A stretch of 64,000 nt of DNA from the NCBI RefSeq assembly GCF_009932335.1, contig NZ_BLJF01000001.1, positions 124,001-188,000 on the forward strand. The letters run 5' to 3'. Within the stretch, counting starts at the first letter, position 1. Each line of letters begins with the position of its first letter. The notes below the pieces were generated by a model. The model was given only the letters and a program-made list of their open reading frames with translations, had not been told where the DNA came from and ran no database searches. Positions 17,486 to 19,517 of the stretch are shown piece after piece. Both the position numbers and the translations under genes were made by a program. Source of the stretch: Pseudomonas asiatica. Lineage in GTDB: Bacteria; Pseudomonadota; Gammaproteobacteria; Pseudomonadales; Pseudomonadaceae.

Positions 17486-17869
17486 ATGTCCGAATACAAC
17501 CCTTGCCTTGACTGCGGCGCCTGCTGCGGGTACTTCCGTGTGTCCTTTTTCTGGGGCGAATGCCAGTCCGCCGGGGGCCTTGTGCCGGACGACCTGGTGG
17601 TACAGATCAACCCCACCCGTGTTGCCATGATCGGCACCGATGCCAAACCCTGCCGCTGCATCAGCCTGCAGGGCGAGATCGGCCAGGAAGTGGCTTGCAC
17701 CATCTACGCCAACCGTTCCAGCCCCTGCCGCGAGTTCGAGGCGTCGTGGGAGGGTGGGGTGCATAACCCCAGCTGCGACGATGCGCGGGCGGCGTATGGC
17801 CTGCCACCACTGACCCCGCCCGGGGCCAACGAGCCGCATTGGCCGGATGATGGGGCTGAGGTGGCCTGA
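17486..17869 (+). CDS. YkgJ family cysteine cluster protein (second copy)
   Basis: 127 residues with the N-terminal [20 protein letters not shown] (CxxCxxCC plus a further Cys) and later cysteines in [23 protein letters not shown] and NPSCDDAR. It is a short, cysteine-rich member of the same family as the gene at 3050-3784, but clearly different in sequence. A metal-binding role is inferred from the cysteines. No Shine-Dalgarno sequence is evident before the ATG. Confidence 0.75.
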
Positions 17870-17891
17870 TCGTATTTCGTTAGCCTGTACC

Positions 17892-17966
17892 GGCCCTTTC
17901 GCGGGTAAACCCGCTCCTACAGGTATCACCGTACCCTGTAGGAGCGGGTTTACCCGCGAAAGGGCC
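17892..17966. repeat. REP-type inverted repeat, perfect 32-bp arms
   Basis: Arms 17892-17923 and 17935-17966 are perfect reverse complements with an 11-nt loop (outer end GGCCCTTTCGCGGGTAAACC). Confidence 0.9.
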
Positions 17967-18111
17967 ATCAGCTGTAAGAAGATTCTGAACCTGCAACCAA
18001 ATGCTTCAGGTTGCCAGGGATTAGGAATTATCCTACGGCCTAAGTCGGATGCCGTCTGATAGGCAAGTAGCTACCTCAGAGATAACGTTTCGGCGTCGTC
18101 ACAATTGGCGA

Positions 18112-18250
18112 TCGGGTGTGAGAAGCCCGGTGTTTCGAGATGGCTTGCCAGTTATGGCAGCCGTGCGCGTGCAGACTTCGGTCTGGCCGGTGCCTCGGAC
18201 ACTGGTCTTCTCACCTCGCGTACGGCTGCCACCTTATCTGTGAGAAGGAT
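18112..18250 (+). ncRNA. Structured leader RNA with competing folds upstream of DUF6124/DUF3077 genes
   Basis: A long stem pairs GTGAGAAG (18118-18125) with CTTCTCAC (18207-18214), continued inward by 18127-18139 with 18194-18205. It encloses a hairpin GGC-UGCCA-GUUA-UGGCA-GCC (18142-18162) and a C(UUCG)G-capped hairpin (18172-18185). GGCAGCCGTGCGC (18156-18168) is complementary over 13 bp to GCGTACGGCTGCC (18218-18230), outside the stem, so a pseudoknot or an alternative fold is possible. TGTGAGAAG recurs at 18239-18247 and could also claim CTTCTCAC. The DUF6124 start follows about 40 nt later. The function is inferred only from structure and position. Confidence 0.6.
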
Positions 18251-18287
18251 GCGAGTGGTTGCCTCTGAAAATATTTCCGAGATGACT

Positions 18288-18509
18288 ATGAAAAAACTTG
18301 TACCTGATCCACCCGTTACAGACCTTACTTACCAAGCCGCGAAGTCCCAGGCTACCCAGGTCATGGACATTCTCTCCAACACCATCCTCCAATACCTCGA
18401 CGCAGAAGCCCCGGACCTGCGTTCCACCCTTCTCGAAAACATGTCGACGCAAACTGCCCTGTTGCACGCCTTGTTAGCCCACATAAAGGCGCAGGAGGCC
18501 CAGGCATGA
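18288..18509 (+). CDS. DUF6124-like small protein
   Basis: 73 residues, MKKLVPDPPVTDLTYQAAK at the start, then a helical segment. The opening K-x-x-P-D-P-P resembles a Pseudomonas-restricted family I know as DUF6124. I chose ATG 18288 because family members start with MK/MF-x-x-x-P-x-PP. An ATG two codons upstream (18282) is also possible. The stop overlaps the next start as ATGA. Function unknown; the structured leader upstream suggests regulated expression. Confidence 0.7.
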   Translation: MKKLVPDPPVTDLTYQAAKSQATQVMDILSNTILQYLDAEAPDLRSTLLENMSTQTALLHALLAHIKAQEAQA

Positions 18510-18757
18510 GCGACCACCTCAAATCCCGCACCACCGTAGGTGCGGAGAAATTCCTTGAGCTGTACCGGATAGAGCCGGGTGTACCGCTTGATCTGGCATT
18601 CGATGAATTGTCGGTGCTGATCGGCTGTATCAAGCATTTGAACGAAGAGGCCGAGATGGAGGGCGACAAGATCGCTGGCAGCGCGGCGCGCATTCTCAGT
18701 GCCATGGCCAAGGCGCTGATCAATGACATGGAAATGGGCTTGAATCGGGGCGCCTGA
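18506..18757 (+). CDS. DUF3077-like small protein
   Basis: 83 residues. The segment YRIEPGVPLDLAFDELSVLIGC followed by a helical C-terminus (AARILSAMAKALINDMEMGL) matches my memory of the DUF3077 family (FRVRPGVPLEHALEQASVLLGC...). It is translationally coupled to the DUF6124-like gene by ATGA. The two families often lie together in pseudomonads. Role unknown. Confidence 0.7.
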   Translation: MSDHLKSRTTVGAEKFLELYRIEPGVPLDLAFDELSVLIGCIKHLNEEAEMEGDKIAGSAARILSAMAKALINDMEMGLNRGA

Positions 18758-18766
18758 ACGATTTTT

Positions 18767-18887
18767 GGGGCCGCTTTGCGGCCCATCGCCGGCAAGCCAG
18801 GCTCCCACAGGTATAGTGCAAGGCTCCTGGCCTGTGGTGTACCTGTGGGAGCCTGGCTTGCCGGCGATAGGGCTGCGCAGCAGCCCC
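18767..18887. repeat. REP-type inverted repeat pair
   Basis: Perfect 29-bp arms (18785-18813 and 18840-18868; ATCGCCGGCAAGCCAGGCTC...), flanked by GGGGCCGC and GCAGCCCC halves. It follows the DUF3077-like gene. Confidence 0.85.
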
Positions 18888-18953
18888 GGGATGCTTGAAC
18901 CGATCGCTTGACGTTAAACTGTCATCTCCCCAGCAATGGACAGGAGATCCGGC

Positions 18954-19517
18954 GTGACCCCACCCCGCAGTTTCCCCAGTGACCTCTGCCTCGACAGCCC
19001 GCGTCTGCAATTGCGCCCCATGCGCCATGCCGATGCCGCGCAATGGCTGGCGATCATGGCCGACCCCGAGGTCATGCGCTATTGGCACCATGCACCTTGG
19101 CAAGACCTGGCCGAAGCCGAAAGCGCCCTGGCCGCCGACCGCGAAGCCTATGCCAATGGTGACCAGCTCAAGCTTGGCATGTACCGCCGTGACAACGGCG
19201 AACTGATCGGTATGGTCCAGCTGTTCAATATCGACGATGTCTCTCGCCGTGGTGAAATCGGCTACTGCCTGGCCAGCGCGGTGCAGGGCAGGGGTTACAT
19301 GGACGAAGCACTGACCTGCTTCATCGATTACCTCGCCCACACCCTGCACATGCGCCGCCTGGAAGGCGAGATCGACCCGCGCAACCAAGGTTCGGCACGC
19401 ACTCTGGAGCGCCAGGGCTTTGTGCTGGAAGGCACATTGCGTGCGCGTTGGTGCGTTGCCGGCGAGTTGTCCGATTCGGGTATTTATGGCCTTCTGCTAG
19501 AGCCCCCGGTTGCATAG
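18954..19517 (+). CDS. GNAT family N-acetyltransferase (RimJ/RimL type)
   Basis: About 187 residues. LDSPRLQLRPMRHADAAQW opens the fold, GEIGYCLASAVQGRGYMDEA holds the acetyl-CoA-binding Q-x-x-G-x-G/A region, and GEIDPRNQGSARTLERQGF is typical of RimJ/RimL-like acetyltransferases acting on amino groups of proteins, small molecules or antibiotics. I chose GTG 18954, with GGAG seven bases upstream, over ATG 18936, which lies before that site. Substrate unknown. Confidence 0.8.
   Translation: MTPPRSFPSDLCLDSPRLQLRPMRHADAAQWLAIMADPEVMRYWHHAPWQDLAEAESALAADREAYANGDQLKLGMYRRDNGELIGMVQLFNIDDVSRRGEIGYCLASAVQGRGYMDEALTCFIDYLAHTLHMRRLEGEIDPRNQGSARTLERQGFVLEGTLRARWCVAGELSDSGIYGLLLEPPVA

Follow-up and report, generated by a model that had tools for sequence, protein, structure and literature searches.

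The structured leader described here most likely silences the small gene pair that adjoins it, as a chromosomal copy of C4, a classic of phage immunity. It lies in a 64,000-nt stretch of Pseudomonas asiatica DNA (the window). By its sequence, fold and targets the leader is a C4 RNA, and it would work like one if it is processed. The reading that we favour, at a probability of about 85%, is that it encodes a C4-type antisense RNA that would be cut from a common leader and aimed at its own operon, blocking translation of the first gene, ORF1, and so that of the second, DUF3077. This reading builds on features observed in the genomes: the family match, the fold, the covariation, the self-matching "addresses" (loop and tail), the gene linkage, and the presence or absence of the unit at one site.

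The Leader Belongs to the C4 Family

In an Rfam scan of the whole window, the C4 model matches the leader over its full length, above the gathering threshold (Table 1). The original prediction, made from the letters of the DNA, had known of no named Rfam family for this element; it has one, RF01695, and the match excludes an unnamed riboswitch. Besides the model score, two further traits of the family are found: compensatory change in stem P1, and a loop and a tail complementary to two flanking target pairs, the upstream loop site being weak in the window copy. Among 132 distinct C4 sequences, 97.0% of P1 cells are paired, and 14 of the 17 pairs of this stem have changed on both sides; in the genome of the window the values are 95.7% and 11 of 17, and the fold-covariation count covers P1 alone. 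The foot of P1 starts with GG in 20 of the 22 copies of this genome, and 18 carry the CCACC end.

Table 1. Leader, linked genes and surrounding block (window coordinates)
Feature	Position	Strand	Basis
Putative upstream target region, c4-a1b1 type	18082..18133	+	RF03163, 28.9 bits, below gathering threshold 46.7, E 4.4e-5
b1, TGTGAGAAG, complement of C4 tail CTTCTCAC	18117..18125	+	
a1, TTCGAG, complement of C4 loop CTCGGA (one G-U)	18134..18139	+	
C4 antisense RNA	18150..18236	+	RF01695, 69.5 bits, cut-off 45, model 1-87 of 87
P1 stem, 5' strand, pairs with 18215-18231; includes 18156-18168	18155..18171	+	model alignment, covariation
P2 hairpin, C(UUCG)G tetraloop	18172..18185	+	model alignment
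P3-loop address, CTCGGA	18194..18199	+	
J3/1 tail address, CTTCTCAC	18207..18214	+	model alignment
P1 stem, 3' strand, GCCA end then CC (NCCA-like)	18215..18231	+	model alignment, covariation
b2, second TGTGAGAAG, downstream target of the tail	18239..18247	+	
a2, TCCGAG, downstream target of the P3 loop	18276..18281	+	
ORF1, start ATG 18282 or (from paralogues) ATG 18288 (MKKLVPDPP)	18282..18509	+	
ORF2, DUF3077 (PF11275), 4-nt overlap with ORF1	18506..18757	+	
Block holding the module, ends set by eye	17870..18905	.	REP-type inverted repeats at ends

The putative upstream target occupies the same place upstream of C4 as the c4-a1b1 element of Rfam (RF03163); it differs in that the window copy stays below the cut-off, which 10 of the 20 C4 loci of the own genome that were scanned pass. 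The a2 site lies 12 to 7 nt ahead of the ATG at 18288, abuts the one at 18282, and contains an SD-like GAG. The isrK model (RF01394) gives no match in 17800-18800 at E <= 0.1. Two microRNA-family matches near the leader were rejected, being far below their cut-offs and sitting on a REP-type inverted repeat; those at other loci are likewise below cut-off.

Two Competing Folds

Every pairing of the original prediction is present where it had been placed. The outer stem (18118-18139 with 18194-18214) is complementary save for one mismatch, two wobbles and one bulge, and the 13-bp helix (18156-18168 with 18218-18230) consists of 12 Watson-Crick pairs and one G-U. The window has exactly two copies of TGTGAGAAG, at 18117 and 18239, and a single one of CTTCTCAC, at 18207. 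On the model alignment, the 13-bp "alternative" helix is the predicted stem P1 of C4, and the "outer stem" arises when the C4 arm (P3 loop plus J3/1 tail) pairs with the putative upstream target a1b1.

The leader (18100-18300, 201 nt) has a minimum free energy of -81.8 kcal/mol (z -4.29), better than all 200 dinucleotide shuffles. This free minimum is the outer-stem fold; forcing P1 yields -75.4 kcal/mol, a cost of 6.4 kcal/mol, and the two folds exclude each other as had been proposed. C4 folded alone reaches -47.7 kcal/mol. A 13-bp inverted repeat is by itself commonplace here: perfect 13-mer inverted repeats with loops of up to 60 nt amount to 131 overlapping cases in the window. The leader stands above chance because of the covariance-model match, the 21 further C4s of the same genome with matching target sites, and the covariation.

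The original prediction read the competing folds as a cis-acting switch or attenuator. In a purely cis mechanism, the precursor would flip between the outer-stem and P1 folds and thereby set access to the ORF1 start, no RNA being released. The two mutually exclusive folds are in line with this, as are the active and inactive conformations reported for the Gifsy-1 isrK leader, of like kind, in the available part of PMC4825925; that the precursor prefers the outer-stem fold by 6.4 kcal/mol weighs against the favoured reading of a released C4. The conserved P1 with its GG start and CCACC end, together with the whole-length C4 match, fits an excised RNA instead, and the Acinetobacter C4 part is far more abundant than its own leader (PMC5320573, available part). 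We consider a purely cis switch unlikely. The known members of RF01695 are trans-acting antisense RNAs; the repeat is therefore better read as a pair of target sites than as part of a cis riboswitch. An attenuator is not supported in the window copy, where no intrinsic terminator lies between the parts.

The predicted pairing of the arm is stronger with a1b1 than with b2a2, both in the window copy (-34.3 vs -25.6) and in the mean of 22 loci (-33.9 vs -27.3). When the whole C4 is co-folded with the downstream mRNA, the expected contact is absent and each partner keeps its own fold. Since both stay folded, loop-loop contacts, which lie outside the model of the program, would be needed.

Self-Matching Addresses

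At least 22 C4 matches, all above cut-off, are found in the own genome (150 of 2004 first-look candidates scored). Loop and tail were taken by fixed position, a definition picked after two cruder versions, and all three matrices are to be read together. With fixed positions, the pairing of these 22 loci with themselves is better than any of 10000 permutations in all four classes of site. When the four sites are summed, the own leader takes first rank in 19 of the 22 rows and in 21 of the 22 columns (19 and 20 when a 130-nt upstream region is used); the row exceptions are L005, ranked 8th, and L017 and the window's own unit, both 2nd. Under the fold-based definition, which is inconsistent between loci, self is first in 6 to 13 of 22, a result reached by 0 of 10000 permutations. 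Duplex energies of the whole antisense RNA give a blurred matrix (self first in 12/22 upstream and 10/22 downstream); we think that the GC-rich P3 stem inflates the non-self pairs.

Other sets display the same pattern. For the 33 listed of the 42 C4 matches of genome G005, self comes first in 29 rows and as many columns. Among 60 loci from 60 genomes (the best C4 from each of the first 60, which favours high scores), self is first in 46 rows and 58 columns; there are 41 distinct addresses, so that orthologues share some. For 26 loci outside the genus, the figures are 24 rows and 23 columns. One of the 60 loci and four of a set of 27 further loci are also among the 33 of G005. In 22/22 own loci, 30/33 in G005, 57/60, 25/27 of the further loci and 21/26 outside the genus, the tail has an exact 7-nt complement on both sides, in the 130 nt upstream and in the 25 nt downstream; the non-self rate is 0.04-0.21 in the first three sets and 0.01-0.21 over all of them. 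Loop/tail pairs are distinct in all 22 own units, and the 33 G005 units have 32, one being common to a tandem duplicate. In the window copy a2 is just 6 nt long, the upstream loop match is weak (rank 16/22, fold-based), and loop plus tail upstream rank 4th by fixed position.

Counting only loci with a start codon 35-70 nt past C4 and a loop target score >= 14, 15/15 own loci (of 22), 48/50 (of 60) and 20/20 (of 27) have a target that overlaps the interval -14 to -4 relative to the start, a place where paired RNA would block ribosome binding. The original prediction was right that the repeated target adjoins the start codon, and a structured leader is indeed kept ahead of homologous genes.

Between homologous loci of the genus, loop and downstream target have changed in step. 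At L042, where the upstream neighbour gene is 96% and DUF3077 95% identical to those of the window, the loop is ACTCCAA and the downstream target TTGGAGT, against CTCGGA and TCCGAG in the window. Across eight homologous loci (from 30), in a comparison where the C4 start of the window copy was set 14 nt too early and its loop taken too long, loop-to-downstream pairing beats all 20000 permutations, self being first in 5/8. The best-scored match is the expected target in L041, L042, L043, L048 and L062; L046 is weak, and in L044 and L045 a matching loop/target pair is visible by eye only. Loop-to-upstream pairing is weaker (118/20000 permutations reach the observed value; self first in 3/8). The compensatory change that the original prediction looked for is thus present in the 13-bp helix (P1) and between loop and downstream target, and weak in the loop part of the outer stem. 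Two paralogues, L001 and L003, have a common loop and different tails, with both b sites altered to match.

Genes Linked to C4

Of the two labels first given to the gene pair, that of ORF2 holds: it is DUF3077 (PF11275; 41.2 bits, cut-off 21). ORF1 had been taken for DUF6124 (PF19619), a candidate rejected for want of any Pfam match to it at E <= 10; no Pfam family reaches its cut-off on ORF1, and NCBIfam gives no match either. ORF2 also matches the phage family phrog_36471, which has no assigned function (E 1.5e-10); among 100 first ORFs, 15 match it too. The predicted DUF3077 structure (mean pLDDT 92.8) shows a short N-terminal strand and a helical hairpin, and when searched against PDB and viral models it gave no hit with an E-value under 1. 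Profile comparison finds DUF3077 homologous to DUF6124-like proteins (97.4%, E 1.4e-11); comparison with the second ORF of the ALNPSKIR class is unconvincing (21%).

In the own genome, 12 of 14 DUF3077 matches start 70 to 485 nt past a C4 on the same strand; around the other two (L023, L024) there is no C4 even at E <= 1. The sole over-cut-off DUF6124 match (L025) is without C4, and three weaker ones adjoin C4. By a profile grown partly from these same loci, C4 is followed on its own strand by an ORF of the DUF3077 superfamily in 18/22 own loci, 38/60, 17/27 and 27/33. Counted as distinct loci, the genus has 97 such cases among 136, and the 26 loci outside it have none. Searching 142 loci (5 counted twice) with the same profile as a control, nothing is found on the other strand, downstream or upstream, and two cases occur upstream on the same strand, the control upstream stretches being partly shorter (137 kb vs 167 kb in total, all sets) and three further loci having been dropped as duplicates. 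A mobile repeat without a link to genes is excluded, the genus copies being tied to a downstream gene family on one strand. Within these samples, the DUF3077 link is a trait of the genus. L022 is without a DUF3077-superfamily gene and L047, by eye, without the gene pair; these C4s are possibly orphans that could still act in trans.

Among the first ORFs of the genus (100 of 109 loci), 27 match DUF3077, 27 DUF6124 and 7 Bro-N at E <= 0.01, in a scan where one protein may count twice and a few picks are visibly wrong (L006, L013, L014). The units led by Bro-N, akin to phage antirepressors (L109, L111, L114, L118, L121), form a possible link between the phage and DUF3077 forms. Outside the genus several C4s precede phage antirepressors; the 25 first ORFs there include Bro-N 2, Rha 2, AntA 1, P22_AR_N 1, SymE 1 and CsrA 2 (five checked singly). 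The SymE case (L090, 1635-1832) is a C4 unit ahead of a SymE toxin-family gene (48.8 bits, cut-off 29).

At 18288-18314, and in many paralogous first ORFs, otherwise different proteins start with M-x-K-x-V-P-D-P-P, in codons that are nearly the same by eye. These common codons hint at a role of the RNA rather than of the protein.

The Surrounding Block and Phage Context

The module comes and goes as a block. Seven relatives that possess the upstream neighbour (L220-L226) have no C4 or gene pair there. In three of them (L220, L222 and L225, from G045, G003 and G007), the same two neighbour genes adjoin each other and the module is absent, the genes of G045 being 97.6% and 96.8% identical; in the remaining four, the downstream neighbour is different or not seen. 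The block is also present in G071 (L042) after the same upstream neighbour, on a stretch that ends before any GNAT gene. The module is bounded by inverted repeats, which we take to be of the REP type, at about 17892-17966 and 18765-18873. Fifteen of the 22 own units have a REP core after them, a count made without a control for the usual REP density after genes.

The two flanking neighbours that were scanned, a CxxCxxCC protein and a GNAT acetyltransferase, are not phage genes. Against 50,697 phage records, blastn of the leader finds nothing at E <= 1e-5, and tblastn of two DUF3077 proteins finds nothing either; DUF3077 matches phrog_36471 although close relatives are absent from these records. 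The unit has no match in 72,556 plasmids. Relatives of the L102 protein occur on four viral contigs, always in the first 1.4 kb, an edge position that may be host flank; for the window's own protein none was found there.

A decayed prophage remnant without function could be suspected, C4 being known from phages, ORF2 and 15/100 first ORFs matching phrog_36471, and L022 and L047 lacking their genes. The joint change of loop and downstream target at this very site, neighbours that are not phage genes, and 22 C4 matches here and up to 42 elsewhere leave it hardly credible.

C4 might also serve mainly as an immunity RNA against antirepressor operons of incoming phages, the adjoining genes being incidental. 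This is its known role in P1 and P7 (PMC5320573, available part), and Weiss et al. offer it there as one option for Acinetobacter; C4 also precedes AntA, Bro-N, Rha and P22_AR_N genes outside the genus, and 7/100 first ORFs within it are Bro-N. The addresses, however, fit the unit's own leader on both sides, and the window leader is without a similar stretch in the phage records at the threshold given above. The phage antirepressor control that marks immI of P1/P7 is not found here either, ORF2 being DUF3077 and ORF1 matching no family. Immunity as the main role is highly unlikely.

Somewhat less doubtful, and compatible with self-silencing by C4, is a toxin-antitoxin-like cassette in which DUF3077 or ORF1 would be harmful and C4 the antitoxin. 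A small gene under antisense control, a unit present or missing as a whole block, and the SymE-family gene after C4 in L090 would suit such a cassette. In usual type I toxin-antitoxin systems, antitoxin and target do not come from one transcript, whereas C4 and its target would, and the helical hairpin of the DUF3077 model has no informative structural match. On balance we do not expect it to hold.

Proposed Mode of Action

Under the preferred reading, self-silencing by a C4 antisense RNA, a single transcript would carry, in order, b1-a1, C4, b2-a2, ORF1 and DUF3077; no sigma-70-like promoter was found in 17850-18960. Once P1, P2 and P3 have folded, C4 would be excised, probably by RNase P at the foot of P1; an NCCA-like end is tied to RNase P substrates. 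The P3 loop CTCGGA and the tail CTTCTCAC would then pair with a2 and b2, on the same or another copy of the mRNA, covering the start region of ORF1 and silencing it, and DUF3077 would be kept off via translational coupling through the 4-nt overlap. The b1-a1 site is predicted to pair with the same arm, more strongly on average. Since the uncut precursor would take that fold, the upstream copy is expected to act as a built-in decoy that delays or titrates C4. With a private address for nearly every unit, the units should be insulated from one another in the cell.

Relation to Known Systems

The unit resembles the C4 system of P1/P7 (immI: c4, icd, ant; RF01695) in the fold of the RNA, in two flanking target pairs, and in having a target where the first ORF of a two-gene unit starts. 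It differs in being chromosomal, in its 22 matches in one genome, and in preceding ORF1 and DUF3077, where the phage RNA precedes icd and ant. The c4 RNA of P1 acts in trans (PMC8546580), on ant expression in phage immunity (PMC8201110, PMC8546580), according to the available parts of these articles.

The Group 1 sRNAs of Acinetobacter baumannii (Weiss et al. 2016, PMC5320573) are likewise multi-copy chromosomal C4-like RNAs with a variable loop. In the available part of that article, strain AB5075 has 21 of them, 15 of which are full-length; the RNAs are apparently processed, and their targets are left open, phage or bacterial transcripts being proposed. In Pseudomonas, by comparison, the addresses fit the leader of their own unit, and the RNAs come with a linked gene family. 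Targets of chromosomal C4s, open for Acinetobacter in that source, are here readable from the sequence, in the RNA's own neighbourhood.

The Salmonella Gifsy-1 arrangement IsrK - STnc1160 - orf45 - anrP (PMC4825925) shares a leader, a processed complementary RNA, and a small ORF coupled to a second gene. In the available part of this article, the processed RNA STnc1160 is complementary to IsrK, and the term C4 RNA does not appear; we infer that STnc1160 would be a C4. The Gifsy-1 IsrK leader looks like a relative, judging by the isrK model, which nearly matches upstream of C4 in L001 (44.5 bits) and L003 (49.3 bits; cut-off 50). The window copy, unlike Gifsy-1 IsrK, has neither an isrK match nor a terminator between a1b1 and C4.

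Other loci do carry, in that same place, a hairpin with a T run that resembles an intrinsic terminator: 3/22 own loci (L001, L002, L003), 28/60, 10/27, 2/33 in G005 and 15/26 outside the genus. Where present, it suggests an added layer of attenuation, and Gifsy-1 IsrK would be such a terminated leader.

In the open-access literature, no link of C4 RNA to DUF3077 or DUF6124 was found among the matches listed, most subscription papers being outside this scope. DUF3077 is named in the available part of PMC9630843, and no mention of DUF6124 was found in the open-access literature searched. In the literature searched we came upon neither the DUF3077 link nor self-matching addresses nor an expansion across the genus.

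Distribution in the Genus and Beyond

C4 is found in at least 138 of 149 sampled Pseudomonas genomes, the own one included, and above cut-off in 137 (up to 27 candidates scored per genome). When 150 candidates were scored in each of six genus genomes, they yielded at least 42, 36, 28, 27, 24 and 21 C4 matches. In a class-wide sample, at least 17 of 273 other genomes have C4, with one to six matches each (up to 15 candidates scored). DUF3077 is present in 116 of the 149 genus genomes and in none of the 11 without a C4 match; under independence, this co-absence would arise about once in 10^8, by a hand calculation that ignores relatedness. The C4 link is a first handle on DUF3077, a family without known function in those 116 genomes, and genomes with 21 to 42 C4 matches are a natural test of how many RNA-RNA addresses may live side by side without crosstalk.

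We advance as a tentative possibility that Pseudomonas genomes hold up to about 40 mutually insulated C4 cassettes controlling DUF3077-superfamily proteins. These would come and go as blocks, and their addresses would be driven apart since a newcomer with a resident address would be silenced, turning a phage immunity code into a chromosomal self/non-self system. Such exclusion of newcomers by address would be akin to plasmid incompatibility and to P1/P7 immunity.

Two minor observations concern the surroundings and density of the units. The motif TCCTACG (either strand), for which no tie to any regulator was found, stands upstream in 11 of the 22 own loci, where shuffles predict 0.4, and TCCTAC lies between -112 and -121 in 10 own loci. 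G409, a genome of 1.5 Mb, has six C4 matches (among them L079, L088 and L093), four of them within 1.4 kb of one contig.
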